From NCBI GenBank assembly GCA_018822805.1, contig JAHJJU010000067.1:1-34121 (forward strand): DNA of 34,121 nt, read 5' to 3'. A model generated the notes under the pieces. It did not search any database. It saw nothing but the letters and a program-made list of their open reading frames with translations, and was not told the DNA's origin. The position numbers were made by a program, and so were the translations under genes. The DNA comes from a bacterium (GTDB lineage Bacteria > Campylobacterota > Campylobacteria > Campylobacterales > Sulfurovaceae). Below, in pieces: positions 19,313-33,726 of this stretch (positions within the stretch are counted from its first letter, which is position 1; the number at the start of each line of letters is the position of its first letter).

Positions 19313-19330
19313 GGTGCAATTTATTGCACC
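19309..19330 (+). repeat. Mini-palindrome at the end of hisH (GGTGC family, copy 3)
   Basis: GTAA followed by GGTGCAAT-tt-ATTGCACC, a perfect 8-bp stem. The TAA of the GTAA foot is the hisH stop codon. It has the same layout as 3416-3437 and lies directly before the AGGAG of the inserted ATPase gene. Confidence 0.65.
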
Positions 19331-19347
19331 AAAAAAGGAGAAACCAA

Positions 19348-20319
19348 ATGCAAGAAGATTTAAATAATAAGCATTTCATAAAAAATATAGAGATTAAAAA
19401 TTTTAAATGTTTTGAAGATTTTAAAGCCGAGGGCTTTGGTCGGGTGAATCTTATTGGTGGAAAGAATAATGTGGGGAAGACGGCTTTTATGGAGGCTGTA
19501 TGTATAAATGTTTCTTCTATAGCGACCTCAAATCTCTTATTTTCGTTAACGATGATTGAACGAAATAGAGATAGATTAAATATTACAGAAAATGAAGTGA
19601 ATATTATTAATCTATTGAGAGAATATAAATCTTTTGAAATCAAAGGTACTCATAAAGTCAATTATCACTTTAATGATAGCAGTATCAATAAAAGCCTCTT
19701 ATTAATCATAGATGAAAAAGAAGAAGAGATAAATTTTTCTGCCAAGATAGTTTTTAATAAAAATGAACATATTGTTTTTATTGATAACTCAGGATTTACA
19801 AATTATGAACTTAAAGAAGTTTATAGTGCTGTACAATTTCAGGATAAAGATAATGTGATTAATGATTATTTAAAAAAGTTTGATGAGAATATTTTACAAT
19901 TTAAAATGATTAATGATAAACCATATATTAAACAAAAAAAAGACAATGATTATTATGCATTAAATAAATTTGGAGATGGACTTAAACAATATATTTCTAT
20001 TATATCTTCTCTTTATGCTACTAAAAATAGTTTTCTATTTATTGACGAAATAGAAAACGGCATCCACTACACAAACCTAGACAAACTATGGGAAATCATC
20101 CTAACCATCTCAAAACAACAAAACGTTCAAGTCTTCGCCACTACGCATTCTAAAGAGTGTATAGAATCTTATGCGAGAGTGGCTAAGAAGTTAGAAGATA
20201 AAGAGATAAAATATATAAAAATGAGCCAATTAAAAGATGGTCAAATTATGGCTGGAGTTCGAGATTATGATATGCTTCAATATACAATGAGTGATGGGCA
20301 TGAGGTTCGAGGCGTATGA
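19348..20319 (+). CDS. AAA (AAA_15/OLD-like) ATPase of an ATPase/TOPRIM pair
   Basis: 323 residues from ATG 19348 (AGGAG at 19336-19340). IKNIEIKNFKCFEDF is the usual N-terminal strand of RecF/OLD-type ATPases. Walker A GGKNNVGKT is at 37-45, Walker B LFIDEIENG at about 230, and FATTHSKE at 263-270 is the D-loop/switch-His region. It overlaps the TOPRIM-like gene by 4 nt. This pairing resembles OLD nucleases and the ATPase half of defence systems such as PARIS. It interrupts the his genes (hisH before, hisA after). It is more AT-rich than its neighbours except for a C-rich patch at about 20041-20150. A defence role is inferred. Confidence 0.8.
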   Translation: MQEDLNNKHFIKNIEIKNFKCFEDFKAEGFGRVNLIGGKNNVGKTAFMEAVCINVSSIATSNLLFSLTMIERNRDRLNITENEVNIINLLREYKSFEIKGTHKVNYHFNDSSINKSLLLIIDEKEEEINFSAKIVFNKNEHIVFIDNSGFTNYELKEVYSAVQFQDKDNVINDYLKKFDENILQFKMINDKPYIKQKKDNDYYALNKFGDGLKQYISIISSLYATKNSFLFIDEIENGIHYTNLDKLWEIILTISKQQNVQVFATTHSKECIESYARVAKKLEDKEIKYIKMSQLKDGQIMAGVRDYDMLQYTMSDGHEVRGV

Positions 20320-20888
20320 TTGCCATATTACATGAGGGCAATGCTCAAAAAACAGCTGACAATAGATTAATAAAGCTTCTAATTGAAGATTTAAAGTTAG
20401 ATGAGAAAAAAGTAAGATTTTTTGGTTTGGGTTCTAAAAGTAATTTTTTTAAACAAGATATAGATGCTTATAAAGAACTACTAGTTGATATTCAAGAGGA
20501 AATTATTTCAAAAGTCTTATTTGTAGTGGATGCTGACTATGAAAAGAATGATAAAAATTATGGTGGATTTGAAAATACACTAAGAGAGATAATAAGTATT
20601 AGAAAAAAATTAAATCTCTATAAAATATCTGATTTGTATATCACTTGTGATTTTGATACAAAAAATGGCTATTTAGAATCGCTAATTTTATCTTCTATAC
20701 CAAAAGAGCAAAAAGAGTGTATAGAAACTTTTTTAGACTGTTCAGAGTTTAAGTCAAAAGAAAATGATAAAGCGATATTGAATCAAATATATAATAATGC
20801 TTATCCCAATGCACCCTATGATTTTTCAAGTGATAAATTTGATATTTTAAAACAAAAACTAAAAAATCTATTTAAAGGAACAGAATAA
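20316..20888 (+). CDS. TOPRIM-like protein (DUF3226/DUF4435-like) paired with the AAA ATPase
   Basis: 190 residues. ILHEGNAQKTADNRLI (E7) and LFVVDADYEKND (D72, D74) form the E...DxD pattern of TOPRIM domains, as in DUF3226 and related nuclease or effector subunits. The C-terminal part has DFDTKNGYLESLILSS and a Lys/Asn-rich tail. The start ATG sits in ATGA with the ATPase stop, so expression is coupled. The next gene (hisA) begins directly after its stop, with a ribosome binding site (AAAGGA) inside this gene's end. It is probably the effector or nuclease partner of the ATPase. Family name and activity need a profile search. Confidence 0.7.
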   Translation: MIAILHEGNAQKTADNRLIKLLIEDLKLDEKKVRFFGLGSKSNFFKQDIDAYKELLVDIQEEIISKVLFVVDADYEKNDKNYGGFENTLREIISIRKKLNLYKISDLYITCDFDTKNGYLESLILSSIPKEQKECIETFLDCSEFKSKENDKAILNQIYNNAYPNAPYDFSSDKFDILKQKLKNLFKGTE

Positions 20889-22454: not shown

Positions 22455-24371
22455 ATGAATAATCAAAACAATAAAAAGAACGATAACAACAATAATAACT
22501 TTTTCAATGACAACCCCATGTTGGCTTTTGGAATTTTTGCATTGGCAATGATTATTATATTTAAATCATTGGTGAATGACGATGGACTGAACAACATTAT
22601 GGGTGATCAGAAAATTGCTAAGACAGAGAAAGTCAAATATTCTGATATTAAACAGTATATCAAAGATGACAAAGTTCAATCGGTAAAAATTACCTCTTCA
22701 ACCATTGAAGCGATTGATAAGAGTGGAAACATTAAATTTATAGCTCAAAATGTTCCGGCATTTGATGAGAAGTTAATTCCACTGATGGAAGAGAGAAACA
22801 TTACCTATGAAGGACGTATTGGTGAAGGCTTAATGGCTGAACTTATCGGTATGTTGTTGCCTATTTTTATTTTCTTTGGTATTTGGTTGTTTTTGGCTAA
22901 AAAGATGTCAAAAGGAATGGGTGGTATTTTAGGTGCAGGAAGAGCTGACAAGCTTATAAATTCTGAAAAACCAAATGTTAAGTTTGATGACGTTCAAGGA
23001 GTTCAAGAAGCCAAAGATGAAGTGGTTGAGATTGTTGACTTTTTGAAGTTTCCGGAGCGTTATATTGAATTGGGAGCAAAAATTCCAAAAGGTCTTCTAC
23101 TTGTAGGACCTCCGGGTACAGGTAAAACATTGTTAGCAAAAGCTGTGGCTGGTGAAGCGTCGGTTCCTTTCTTTTCTGTAAGTGGCTCAAGCTTTATAGA
23201 GATGTTTGTAGGGGTTGGAGCATCTCGTGTTCGTGACCTTTTTGAGCAAGCTAAAAAAGATGCTCCATCGATTATTTTTATTGATGAGATTGATGCTATC
23301 GGTAAATCTCGTGCTTCTGGTGGACAGATGGGTGGAAATGATGAGCGTGAACAGACACTCAATCAGCTTCTTGCAGAGATGGATGGTTTTGGTACCGATA
23401 CACCGGTTATTGTATTGGCTGCGACCAACCGACCGGAAACACTGGATGCTGCCTTACTTAGAGCAGGGCGTTTTGACCGACAAGTATTGGTAGATAAACC
23501 GGATTTTGATGGACGTTTAGCCATTTTAAAAGTACACTCTAAAGATGTTAAGTTATCAGAGAATGTTGACTTAGAAATTGTGGCAAAACAGACAGCAGGT
23601 TTGGCCGGTGCAGATTTAGCAAACATTATTAATGAAGCAGCACTTTTAGCCGGTCGTTTAAATAAAAAGGTCATTGAGCAGTCAGAGTTACTAGAAGCAA
23701 TTGAGCGTTCATTTGTAGGGCTTGAGAAGAAAAATAGAAAAGTATCTGAAGTTGAAAAACGTATTGTTGCTTATCATGAGAGTGGACACGCTTTAATGGC
23801 AGAGTTGACAAAAGGTGCCACACGGGTAACCAAAGTATCCATTATTCCAAGGGGTTTAGGTGCATTAGGATACACCTTACATTTACCGGACGAAGAAGAC
23901 AGATTTTTAAAACAAAAACATGAATTGATGGCAGAGATCGATGTATTTCTCGGTGGTCGTGCTGCAGAAGAGATTTTCATTGGTGAAATTTCGACGGGTG
24001 CCGGAAATGACCTTGACCGTGCAACAGCGATTTTAAAAGATATGATTACTGTTTATGGTATGAGTGATGTTGCCGGTCTAATGGTTCTATCAAGACGTCA
24101 AAGTTCATTCCTTGGTGGTGGACATATTTCAAATGACTTTAGTGAAAAAATGGCTCAAGATATTGATGCCAATATTAAAGCGACATTAACAGAGCGTTAT
24201 GAGTTTGTTAAGAAGACATTAAAAGAGTATGACGGTGCCATTGAAAAAATGGCTGAAGTTCTTTTAGATGTTGAAGTCATTGAAGGCTCGACGGTGCGTT
24301 CGATTATTGAAGAGTATGAAAAAGAGCAGGGTATGGAGTCACGATTGGCACATACAAAAAAAGAGGTTTAA
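22455..24371 (+). CDS. ftsH: ATP-dependent zinc metalloprotease FtsH
   Basis: 638 residues, normal length. The N-terminus is very Asn/Lys-rich, then TM1 (about 24-42), a periplasmic domain of about 80 residues, TM2 (about 130-147), the AAA domain with Walker A GPPGTGKT (near 218-225), Walker B IIFIDEID and the [22 protein letters not shown], and the M41 protease domain with HESGH. It degrades membrane and regulatory proteins, and in many bacteria LpxC, which would link it to LPS. AGGAAG lies upstream of the ATG. A REP follows 6 nt after the stop. Confidence 0.97.
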
Positions 24372-24404: not shown

Positions 24405-24467
24405 TTATCTTATAAGAAACTTTAATAATCTTTGGTTATACTTTTAAAAAATAACAGGAGAGACAGC
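24405..24467 (+). promoter_or_regulatory. Probable leuL-leuA promoter and leader ribosome binding site
   Basis: TATACT at 24437-24442 is a plausible -10. No clear -35 is seen. AGGAG at 24456-24460 is a good ribosome binding site, 7 nt before the leader-peptide ATG at 24468. Confidence 0.5.
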
Positions 24468-24545
24468 ATGAAAACTATTCATACAACAATAACAAACTTC
24501 ACACAAGAACATACTCTTCTACTTCTACTTCTACTCTCATTCTAA
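24468..24545 (+). CDS. leuL: Leucine leader peptide of the leuA attenuator
   Basis: 25 codons, MKTIHTTITNFTQEHT then seven consecutive Leu and SF-stop. The Leu codons (24516-24536) are CTT, CTA, CTT, CTA, CTT, CTA, CTC, while the genes around it use mostly TTA. Such a run of regulatory codons in a short peptide directly before leuA is the hallmark of ribosome-mediated attenuation: ribosomes stall here when leucyl-tRNA is scarce. It has its own AGGAG and a proper start and stop. The peptide itself is not expected to have a function. Position and codons make the call strong, though it is based on sequence only. Confidence 0.88.
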   Translation: MKTIHTTITNFTQEHTLLLLLLLSF

Positions 24546-24617
24546 TATAAATCACACACAATTCCACTCCATTAGTTTCTAATAATCCGAACTAGGATAG
24601 AATTAGATAATTTTTTT
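24542..24617 (+). terminator. leuA attenuator with alternative pairings
   Basis: Four segments with interchangeable complementarity: 1 CTAAT (24542-24546, over the leader stop), 2 ATTAG (24571-24575), 3 TCTAAT plus ATCC (24578-24588), 4 GGAT plus ATTAGA (24595-24607). Segment 3:4 forms a 10-bp interrupted hairpin followed by a T7 tract (24611-24617), the shape of a Rho-independent terminator. Pairing 2:3 excludes 3:4, and 1:2 excludes 2:3, as in classical amino-acid attenuators. The 1:2 and 2:3 stems are only 5 bp, so energetics are uncertain. Confidence 0.7.
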
Positions 24618-24645
24618 ACGTACGATATGAAGCGTACGTTTTATT
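24618..24645 (+). terminator. Second hairpin before leuA
   Basis: ACGTACG (24618-24624) pairs with CGTACGT (24633-24639), a perfect 7-bp stem with an 8-nt loop, followed by TTTTATT. It lies directly after the T7 tract and 18 nt before the leuA ATG. It may be an additional terminator or a structure controlling leuA translation. Confidence 0.5.
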
Positions 24646-24662
24646 ACTATAAGGTAAAAATA

Positions 24663-26222
24663 ATGAGCAAAGATATCATTAAAATATTTGACACAACATT
24701 AAGAGATGGTGAGCAGAGTCCTGGGGCTTCTATGAACACCGAAGAGAAGATACAGATAGCCATTCAGTTAGAGAAGTTAGGGGTTGACATTATCGAAGCC
24801 GGATTTGCTGCAGCGAGTCCGGGAGATTTTGATGCCATCTCTAAGATAGCACAAAGGGTGACGAAATCAACGGTCTGTTCATTGGCACGAGCAATTGATT
24901 CCGATATAAAAGCAGCAGGTGAAGCGATAGCCAAAGCGAAAATGAAACGTATTCATACCTTCATTGCCACATCTCCCATTCATATGGAATACAAATTAAA
25001 AATGACCCCTGATGAGGTAATTAAACGGGCTGTAAGAGCTGTGGAGTATGCCCGTACTTTTGTGGATGATGTAGAGTTCTCTTGTGAAGATGCAGGACGT
25101 AGTGACATTGGCTTTATGAAAGAGATAAGTGATGCTGTAATAGAAGCAGGAGCTTCAACCATTAATTTACCCGATACCGTAGGATTTAGATTGCCTTATG
25201 AAATCGGTGAAATGGTAAAGATAATGAGTGACTATACCAAAGATAGAGCCATTATTTCGGTGCATAATCACAATGATTTGGGTTTGGGTGTTGCCAACTC
25301 TTTAGAAGCTGTGATGAATGGTGCAAGACAAGTAGAGTGTACCATTAACGGTTTAGGGGAACGAGCAGGAAATGCAGCTTTAGAAGAGATAGTAATGGCA
25401 TTAAAGACCAGAAAAGATGTTTTCTCTAATTTCACCACCAACATCAATACCAAAGAAATTTACCCATCGAGTCGTTTGATTGCGAATATTACAGGGATTG
25501 AGCCACAACCCAACAAAGCGATAGTCGGTAAAAATGCGTTTGCTCACGAGAGTGGCATTCACCAAGATGGTATGTTGAAAAACCGTGAAACCTATGAGAT
25601 TATATCTCCTGCTGATATCGGTTTGGATATGGATGATACGTTGGTATTGGGGAAACACTCAGGACGTGCAGCCTTTAAAGATAAGTTGGCAAAATTAGGT
25701 TTTACGTTGGAGGATGCAGCATTAAACGCTTCATTTGAGCGTTTTAAAATTTTGGCAGATAAGAAAAAAGATATTTATGATGATGATTTAAGAGCTTTGG
25801 TAACGAATGAAATGACCAATGCCCCTAAAATTTATGAGTTACTCTCATTGCAGTTAATGGATTTTTCCAATGGTACGCCAAGTGCTGTGGTGAAGATTAA
25901 AAAAGAGAATGAAGAGATTATCGAAGCAGGGATTGGTGAGGGAACGATTGATGCAATTTTTAAAACCATTGATAGAATCTCAGGGTATGAGGGTAAATTG
26001 TTGGACTATAAAGTAAACTCGGTGAGTAAAGGTAAAGATGCCTTAGCCAATGTAACGGTCAAAGTAGCCTTTAACGATACAGAACCTGCGATTATAGGTC
26101 ATGGTTTACACATAGATACCATGTTGGCAAGTGCCAGAGCGTACCTTGGTGCATTGAACTCCTATTTGAGCATGGCAGGGATGTTAAAGAAGCGTCATAG
26201 CGATAGCAGTCAGACGGTTTAG
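24663..26222 (+). CDS. leuA: 2-isopropylmalate synthase
   Basis: 519 residues from ATG 24663 (TAAGG at 24650-24654). It condenses acetyl-CoA with 2-oxoisovalerate, the first step of leucine synthesis. [17 protein letters not shown] is the substrate/metal motif, [19 protein letters not shown] holds the metal-binding His residues, [13 protein letters not shown] follows, and the last 130 residues form the LeuA allosteric (leucine feedback) domain. A frame extending 12 codons upstream runs through the second hairpin and is rejected as a start. Control is probably two-layered: leucine feedback on the enzyme and the attenuator upstream. Confidence 0.96.
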
Positions 26223-28097: not shown

Positions 28098-28340
28098 ATG
28101 CCTACGATTACCCTGAAATCAGACAATGACTTTTTTAATATGCTTAACGATATGGTGAAATCACTAGATACCAATCGTAGTGACCTTATTAGAAAAGCTG
28201 TTATCCATTATCGTGATGTCCTCGAAAAAGAGAAGCTAAAAATGCAAATAAAAAAAGCTTCGATGAAAGTTCGAGAAGAGTCTCTAAAAGTTTCCAAAGA
28301 GTTTGATAATAGCGTAAATGATGGTCTTGACCATGTTTAA
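28098..28340 (+). CDS. Ribbon-helix-helix antitoxin of a MazEF-like module
   Basis: 80 residues. The N-terminal TITLKSDNDFFNMLNDMVKS then TNRSDLIRKAVIHYRDVL is a ribbon-helix-helix (CopG/MazE-like) DNA-binding domain. The Lys/Glu-rich C-terminus (KEKLKMQIKKASMKVREES) would wrap the toxin. AAAGGA precedes the ATG. It overlaps the toxin gene by 8 nt. It probably represses its own operon at the inverted repeat 28066-28081. Confidence 0.78.
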   Translation: MPTITLKSDNDFFNMLNDMVKSLDTNRSDLIRKAVIHYRDVLEKEKLKMQIKKASMKVREESLKVSKEFDNSVNDGLDHV

Positions 28341-28677
28341 AAAAGGTGAAATCTATCTAGCTAGACTCAACCCACGCAAAGGTAATGAAGTAGGGAAAGT
28401 ACGACCTGTTCTTATCTTTCAAACCAATATGTTAAATGAGATAGAACATCCAACTACGGTTATTATCCCTCTTTCAACTTATCTTATTAATGATGCTTAC
28501 CCTCTGCGTTATAGAGTTGAAAAAAGAGAAAAGTTAGAGCAAGATAGTGACCTGCTTTGTGACCAAATACGAACGATAGATAATCAGCGTATTATTTCGG
28601 ATAAGTTGGCTGAATTGTCTTTGAAAGAGCTGTTAGAGGTGGATGAGCAGGTTAAGATTGTGTTGGCATTGAGGTGA
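28333..28677 (+). CDS. MazF/PemK-family mRNA interferase toxin
   Basis: 114 residues from ATG 28333. KKGEIYLARLNPRKGNEVGKVRPVLIFQ is spread over the MazF N-terminal strands, PTTVIIPLSTYL follows, and DSDLLCDQIRTIDNQRI is the conserved D-Q-R-T block. It cleaves RNA, is held inactive by the antitoxin, and forms a type II module. In-frame ATGs at 28318 and 28321 are possible starts, but the family begins near MFKKGEIYLA. There is no clear ribosome-binding site, so translation is coupled to the antitoxin by the overlap. Confidence 0.83.
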   Translation: MFKKGEIYLARLNPRKGNEVGKVRPVLIFQTNMLNEIEHPTTVIIPLSTYLINDAYPLRYRVEKREKLEQDSDLLCDQIRTIDNQRIISDKLAELSLKELLEVDEQVKIVLALR

Positions 28678-32675: not shown

Positions 32676-33683
32676 ATGAGCTACAATCCAAAACTAGTAA
32701 AATTACAAAAAAATATCAATCTAAATGAACTCAAAAATAGTGATTTAGATTTTATAGAAAAGTACATCTCTAAAGATAATATTGTAGAGCTAAACAGTAA
32801 TAGTAAAAATCCTATTTATACACCAAAACAGACACTATCTATGTTCGTATCACAAGCAATTAATCAAGATGGTTCTTGTCAAAATGTAGTGAATAAATTG
32901 GCACTGGAAAAAGATAAAGATATTTGCATATCAACAAGTGCATACTGTCAAGCTAGAGGTCGTTTATCTGTTATCGCAATTTCAAATATCACAAAAGAGA
33001 TAGCAAGAGTTGATGAAGATAGAATTAATTCTAAGTGGAAATTTAGAGGTAGAAATGTCTATCTTGTAGATGGCACAACCATAGCAATGGCAGATACTTT
33101 AGCCAACCAGAAAGCATATCCTCAACCAAATTTTCAAAAGGAAGGTTTGGGCTTTCCGATATGTCGTTTGGTCGGTATTATATCATTAACTACAGGTTCA
33201 ATTATTGATGTGAATATTGGCACTTATGGTGGTAAAGGAACTGGAGAGAGGATGCTATTTCAAGAGATGTTACACAACTTCAAAGAAGGTGACATTATCT
33301 TGGCAGATGCCCTATATAGCACCTATTCACTGCTATCATTCGCTATTGAAAAAGGGATAGATATTATTTTTGTGCAAAATGGCAGTAGAGCAAAAAAGAC
33401 AGATTTTACAACAGGTGAGATACTTGGGAAAAATGACCATGTCATTACACTAAAAAGACCAAAAGATGTACCTGAATGGATGAGTAAAGAGGAGGGTAAA
33501 AATAGACCAAAAGAGTTGAAAATTCGTGAGATTAAGACAGGAGATAAAATCCTTATCACTACCTTTTTATGTAAAAAAACAACCAGTGCGAAAATCATAA
33601 AGAAACTCTATAAAGAGCGATGGCATATTGAAGTCGATTTTAGAAATATTAAAATTACATTAAACTTTACACCCCAGTGGTAA
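32676..33683 (+). pseudogene. IS4-family DDE transposase, 3'-truncated
   Basis: 335 residues of an enzyme usually over 400. YLVDGTTIAM and ILADALYSTY hold the two catalytic Asp, and YKERWHIEVDFRNIK is the complete Y-R-E-K signature with the catalytic Glu. After FRNIK the family normally continues for 80 or more residues (KTTLGM and onward). Here only ITLNFTPQW follows, and FTPQW and the stop are encoded by the right inverted repeat (33670-33694). The element thus appears internally deleted next to its right end. All catalytic residues are present but the fold is incomplete, so it is probably inactive. Confidence 0.85.
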
Positions 33684-33694
33684 AAACTCCACTT
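33670..33694 (-). repeat. Right inverted repeat of the IS4-type element
   Basis: CACCCCAGTG-gtaaaaa-CTCCACTT, the mirror of 32563-32587. It encodes the last codons and stop of the truncated transposase and overlaps the left arm of the palindrome that precedes the RAYT gene (33687-33726). Confidence 0.7.
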
Positions 33695-33726
33695 TTGTGA
33701 TATAATCTAAAATCATAAAAGTGGAG
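33687..33726 (+). promoter_or_regulatory. Palindrome with -10 box and ribosome binding site of the RAYT gene
   Basis: CTCCACTTTTGTGAT (33687-33701) pairs with ATCATAAAAGTGGAG (33712-33726), 15 bp with one G-T pair. The centre contains TATAAT (33701-33706). The right arm ends in GGAG (33723-33726), which is also the ribosome binding site 7 nt before the ATG at 33734. Transposase expression may be limited by this hairpin. Confidence 0.6.

Follow-up and report, generated by a model that had tools for sequence, protein, structure and literature searches.

A predicted LeuL-type attenuator upstream of leuA in a Sulfurovum-type Campylobacterota genome, with conserved tandem hairpins and complementarity between the leader Shine-Dalgarno sequence and the leucine codons

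The window, i.e., the whole stretch of DNA that was analysed, is 34,121 nt in length and comes from a 2.79-Mb Sulfurovum-type Campylobacterota genome, to which Sulfurovum MAGs are the closest relatives with a name. A 25-codon ORF read from the sequence (ATG, MKTIHTTITNFTQEHTLLLLLLLSF, stop) is located between ftsH (22455–24371) and leuA (24663–26222). The window also carries, at positions 19324–20888 (+ strand), genes for an AAA_15 ATPase, matched best by PADLOC to AbiLi and next to PDC-M38A, and for a DUF3226/PDC-M38B-like protein. They sit inside the histidine genes, between hisH and hisA, and look like a small anti-phage pair. A MazF/PemK-like toxin gene is found downstream of leuA (28318–28677, + strand), and positions 32676–33726 (+ strand) hold a DDE transposase gene with, directly behind it, an inverted repeat of 15 bp (33687–33726) that is possibly a terminator. 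The features of the leuA upstream region are as follows.

24437–24442, + strand: TATACT, likely the -10 box of the leader's own promoter, judged by its recurrence in relatives
24456–24462, + strand: AGGAGAG, leader Shine-Dalgarno (SD) sequence and 5' half of the SD:Leu helix (sequence, duplex of -8.8 kcal/mol, phylum-wide pairing tests)
24468–24545, + strand: leader peptide LeuL, 25 codons (terminal Leu run, kept in about 26 Sulfurovum-type loci)
24508–24574, + strand: 67-nt G-free, C-rich stretch over the Leu codons and the spacer, possible Rho entry region (length of the G-free run, C>G ranking)
24514–24520, + strand: CTCTTCT, 3' half of the SD:Leu helix, consisting of codon -1, the first Leu codon and the start of the second (constant register in relatives)
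24516–24536, + strand: seven consecutive CTN Leu codons, the putative leucine sensor (sequence, conserved)
24578–24617, + strand: hairpin 1 (24578–24607) and T7 tract (24611–24617), probable intrinsic terminator (inner-stem covariation, shuffles)
24618–24645, + strand: hairpin 2 (24618–24639) with a T-rich tail, a possible second terminator or 5' mRNA hairpin (varied self-complementary stems)
24651–24654, + strand: AAGG, leuA SD (sequence), not sequestered by the RNA that follows the leader stop
24663–26222, + strand: leuA, 2-isopropylmalate synthase (above NCBIfam cut-offs), the presumed regulated gene

The leader has AGGAG at 24456–24460, just before its ATG, and its Leu run reads CTT CTA CTT CTA CTT CTA CTC. 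The share of CTN among Leu codons is 7/7 in this run, compared with 42% in the genes of the window. An earlier note on this DNA had described the 25-codon peptide with its own AGGAG and seven CTN Leu codons, and its coordinates and sequence are confirmed here. LeuL leaders are defined as ORFs of 20–35 aa with an SD and several C-terminal Leu codons, located directly upstream of leuA; the present leader has 25 aa, an AGGAG sequence and 7 Leu, and lies 117 nt before leuA. In many relatives TATACT(T) occurs upstream of the leader SD, at a distance of about 15–25 nt, and a simple sigma-70 scan gave no promoter site. The leader RNA folds more than expected by chance (z = -2.4). No Rfam cis-regulatory covariance model matched above its gathering score in the window. 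A search of the 2.79-Mb genome with the SD–Leu-run pattern gave a second match that is unlike a leader, and the reversed control gave an equal number of matches.

How well such leaders are documented in this phylum had been left uncertain by the earlier note; in their available text, two publications provide this documentation. LeuL was predicted, with attenuation as the proposed mechanism, in Campylobacter jejuni and in the majority of Epsilonproteobacteria that have leucine genes (PMC3847290). Translation (start) of C. jejuni LeuL was shown by Ribo-seq (PMC11955535), and short leuL RNAs that end just after the stop codon are described (PMC3847290, PMC11955535). The leader studied here shares with LeuL of C. 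jejuni and the Epsilonproteobacteria the phylum, the gene, a leader of 20–35 aa, terminal Leu codons, an SD and a position upstream of leuA.

The leuA upstream regions of 60 relatives, of named genomes that were scanned, and of 220 further genomes of the phylum were compared. The leader is kept in about 26 Sulfurovum-type loci, with about 21–25 codons, an SD and a terminal Leu run, and is about 100–140 nt upstream of leuA in most of them. Most other Campylobacterota loci examined also have a leader that carries an SD and ends in a Leu run. The Leu run is thus conserved in related genomes and in other families, which is the outcome of a check that the earlier note had named. The leader is missing at some leuA loci (L011, L012, L013, L018, L026, L027 and L032); at L007 it is lost and both hairpins are retained. 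Four Helicobacter-type loci (L071, L073, L171 and L174) have a different conserved leader before leuA, which ends in KNLLTLSMLLPLG or KNLLTLSLLLPLG.

Hairpin 1 has the form TCTAAT-A-ATCC-loop-GGAT-AGA-ATTAGA, with an outer stem TCTAAT/ATTAGA and an inner stem ATCC/GGAT, and is followed by T7. In 23 aligned loci, 95.7% of its cells are paired, compared with 91.2% in shuffles and at most 47% in slid versions, and in 14 cells both sides have changed, compared with 5.8 in shuffles (reached by 0 of 500 shuffles). These compensatory changes are confined to the inner stem, which occurs as ATCC/GGAT, ATCT/AGAT, ACCC/GGGT and ACCG/CGGT; the outer stem displays no covariation in the 23 aligned loci. RNAalifold selects the same structure, and its stability is about -4 to -10 kcal/mol across the loci. 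The pattern is unique in the 2.79-Mb genome, with no second copy. Hairpin 2 directly follows and consists of ACGTACG/CGTACGT, followed by TTTATT and then by the leuA SD. It was found in a search for terminator-like sites, for which shuffles give 0.1. Most loci have it; its stem occurs in at least 10 different sequences, all still complementary, and a T-rich tail mostly follows. Both hairpins, the first with its T7, are located where the earlier note had placed them, and to these the comparison adds the covarying inner stem of hairpin 1 and the self-complementarity of the hairpin 2 stem across species. The T-run is absent after hairpin 1 at L020, L022 and L025 and after hairpin 2 at L056 and L057, so the two hairpins may share their roles differently from locus to locus. 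A hairpin with a T-run between leader and structural gene is characteristic of attenuators; hairpin 1, a putative terminator, has this form and position, and together with T7 it is probably an intrinsic terminator.

The 3' arm of hairpin 1 may be read in a second way: it may (also) belong to a second promoter, as its -10 element, and leuA would then have a leader-independent transcript. TA[AGC]AAT or TAAGAT is kept in this arm in nearly all loci, including L020, L022 and L025 where the T-run is absent, and the outer arms never covary. In addition, leuA loci without leader or hairpin (L011, L012, L013 and L032) keep GGGTAAAATTA..AATT upstream of leuA, which is similar to the 3' arm of hairpin 1 at other loci and resembles a -10 box. 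However, the inner stem does covary, most loci have a T-run, for which a promoter would have no need, and the sigma-70 scan gave no site. A second promoter is therefore considered unlikely, although it is compatible with attenuation and both roles could coexist in the same sequence.

The leader SD pairs with codon -1 and the first and second Leu codons, in a single register, in nearly all leaders of the phylum. Compensating changes maintain this helix, e.g., AGGATAGAAGA with TCTTCTATCCT at L028, GAGGATAGA with TCTATCCTC at L082, CAGCAGGAGT with ACTCCTGCTG at L062, and AGGAGTGTAC with GTACACTTCT at L024. The SD pairs more strongly with the Leu codons of its own leader than with swapped partners, and it does so in the first set of loci (z -4.2), in a held-out set that was fetched afterwards as a test (z -4.4) and in 33 distant representatives that are less than 62% alike (z -5.1). 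The helix is also stronger than in synonymous codon redraws (z -4.2 to -6.2). Taken as a class, the Sulfurovum-type leaders pass the synonymous test (z -4.7) but do not clearly pass the swap test (z -1.6). In the window the helix AGGAGAG:CTCTTCT has one G-U pair and a value of -8.8 kcal/mol, which is weaker than most of its synonymous redraws. A single-base covariation is seen in the first set between AGGAGA or AGGAGT and the third base of codon -1 (33:1 and 1:6); it is not confirmed on its own in the held-out loci, because these contain only three AGGAGT sequences, one of them in register. We read the SD:Leu helix as a lock, in which vacant Leu codons would hide the leader start and a waiting ribosome would keep it open. 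Its fixed register across the phylum looks new.

In several other families, 37 distinct leaders display the nearly invariant amino acid sequence G-x-x-K-[SA]-x-K-x-L-P-K-I-E-I-K-N-x-L-L before the Leu run (loci L034, L046, L064, L143, L187 and L203 are among them), and the codons vary silently, e.g., CCA 21, CCC 8, CCT 7 and CCG 1 for P, and ATC 15, ATA 11 and ATT 11 for I. These leaders were chosen by the motif columns, but the flanking G and K columns are outside this selection and are equally constant. Arrest motifs act in the upper exit tunnel, and LPKIEIKN would be located there with the first Leu codon in the A site. This near invariance in amino acids over many synonymous codons would suit a nascent-peptide arrest element, where the stall is caused by the peptide and not by the Leu codons only. 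The motif is missing from the window's own family, however, and for this locus peptide arrest is distinctly unlikely. The conservation of LPKIEIKN in the other families looks new.

The earlier note had proposed a classical switch made of four mutually exclusive segments that pair 1:2, 2:3 or 3:4. According to this proposal a ribosome stalled on the Leu codons covers segment 1, so that 2:3 forms and the 3:4 terminator is blocked. The window does allow a hairpin ATTAG-TTT-CTAAT (2:3), the sequence of TTAGTTTCTAAT is well conserved, and at L008 the double change CTTAG-TTT-CTAAG retains the 2:3 pairing. Segment 1 (CTAAT, 24542–24546), however, overlaps the leader stop codon and is found solely in the window. 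The 1:2 duplex between the stop region and segment 2 is no stronger in own pairs (-0.50 kcal/mol) than in swapped pairs (-0.78 kcal/mol). For 2:3, 78.3% of the cells are paired, as in shuffles (77.4%). Several relatives have a broken form of this hairpin, and in most its value is about 0 kcal/mol, compared with about -4 to -10 kcal/mol for hairpin 1. Of the pairings proposed, 3:4 (hairpin 1) is thus retained, and 1:2 and 2:3 are not. The distances are also unfavourable. A ribosome reaches about 12–15 nt ahead of its decoding site. Hairpin 1 is 41 nt from the last Leu codon and 32 nt from the leader stop, so a ribosome on the Leu run or at the stop cannot cover its arm. The failure of 1:2 and 2:3 in these comparisons, together with the distances, leaves both the exclusive pairing and the freeing of segment 2 unsupported, and the four-segment model is very unlikely. 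No stable antiterminator was found in the leader region, where the intrinsic hairpin is about 40 nt from the stall site.

The signal from ribosome to RNA polymerase may be relayed in another way. Positions 24508–24574 are the longest G-free run on the + strand (an order-1 Markov model gives a mean of 42 and a maximum of 61 in 60 runs) and are within its top-ranked C>G region with windows of 80 and 100 nt. Across the phylum, C makes up 24–28% and G 7% of the segment that begins with the Leu run and reaches 35 nt past the stop. Because of this G-free, C-rich stretch and the presence of a Rho gene in the genome, Rho entry is judged to be the likeliest relay. While it stands on the Leu codons, a ribosome would occupy roughly half of this stretch; it would block Rho entry and meanwhile keep the SD:Leu helix open. 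This relay is put forward tentatively, as possible but short of probable, and the low G content may only serve to keep the leader unstructured. A Rho entry relay would also suit families without a visible terminator hairpin. Translational control, in which the state of the leader sets the accessibility of the leuA SD, would suit several families that have no evident terminator and only about 50–60 nt between leader stop and leuA, but it is highly improbable: the leuA SD pairs more weakly with the RNA downstream of the leader stop than with swapped partners (z +6.0), evidence against a masking of leuA translation, and no better with the Leu run than with swapped ones (z +1.1).

The best explanation of the locus is a LeuL-type, ribosome-mediated transcription attenuator of leuA in which termination would be the default, with a probability of about 0.78 that does not extend to the relay. 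It is well supported because the Leu run and the downstream hairpins are conserved and LeuL has been described in the phylum. Against it count the failure to find a stable antiterminator by which stalling would act on an intrinsic hairpin about 40 nt away, the weak SD:Leu helix of the window and the three loci without a T-run after hairpin 1. The earlier note's leucine leader-peptide attenuator of leuA is therefore upheld as an attenuator but not in the switch that was proposed for it.

From these features we infer termination, a response to leucine and a relay in the following form. Transcription would start shortly before 24456 and the leader would be translated at once. With sufficient Leu-tRNA, the ribosome would run to the stop codon and leave, and RNA polymerase would then end at hairpin 1 and T7, with hairpin 2 as a back-up or as the end of the mRNA. 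When Leu-tRNA is short, the ribosome would wait on the CTN run and leuA would be transcribed. Its presence there would keep Rho from entering at the G-free, C-rich stretch. The waiting ribosome would also hold the SD:Leu helix open so that more ribosomes load; with the Leu run vacant, the helix would shut the leader. A wider version of this attenuator, in force throughout the phylum without a classical antiterminator and combining the lock of the leader SD by the Leu codons, the Rho relay and, in several families, a part for LPKIEIKN in the stall, is speculative and unlikely to hold in all its parts.

The leuL of Escherichia coli and Salmonella has a leader peptide with Leu codons and a terminator before the structural genes. 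The same arrangement is present here, but the protector, preemptor and antiterminator pairings of the enterobacterial attenuator are unsupported. In Rho-dependent attenuation of the tnaC type, a ribosome stalled on the leader ORF blocks Rho entry downstream. Here, sensing would be by hungry codons, intrinsic-type hairpins are present and the Rho block is putative. In the E. coli trp leader, downstream leader RNA hides the leader SD and limits later rounds of translation, whereas in the present leaders the masking strand is the regulatory codons themselves, in a fixed register across the phylum. The available text of the LeuL publications (PMC3847290, PMC11955535) describes no RNA structures; compared with it, the covarying tandem hairpins of the Sulfurovaceae, the evidence against the antiterminator of the earlier note, the SD:Leu helix and the LPKIEIKN conservation in other families are additions. 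No description of the non-classical anatomy, the SD:Leu helix or the peptide motif was found in the literature searched, in which many subscription papers are missing.

Leucine leaders of the Campylobacterota are thus known, but the literature found offers no worked-out mechanism for them. For the window's family the comparative data disfavour the textbook switch. They point to two alternatives. One is a lock on the SD that the sensing codons themselves would form; the other, outside this family, is a conserved nascent peptide beside the stall site. If true, either of these would widen the ways in which a ribosome reports the supply of an amino acid.
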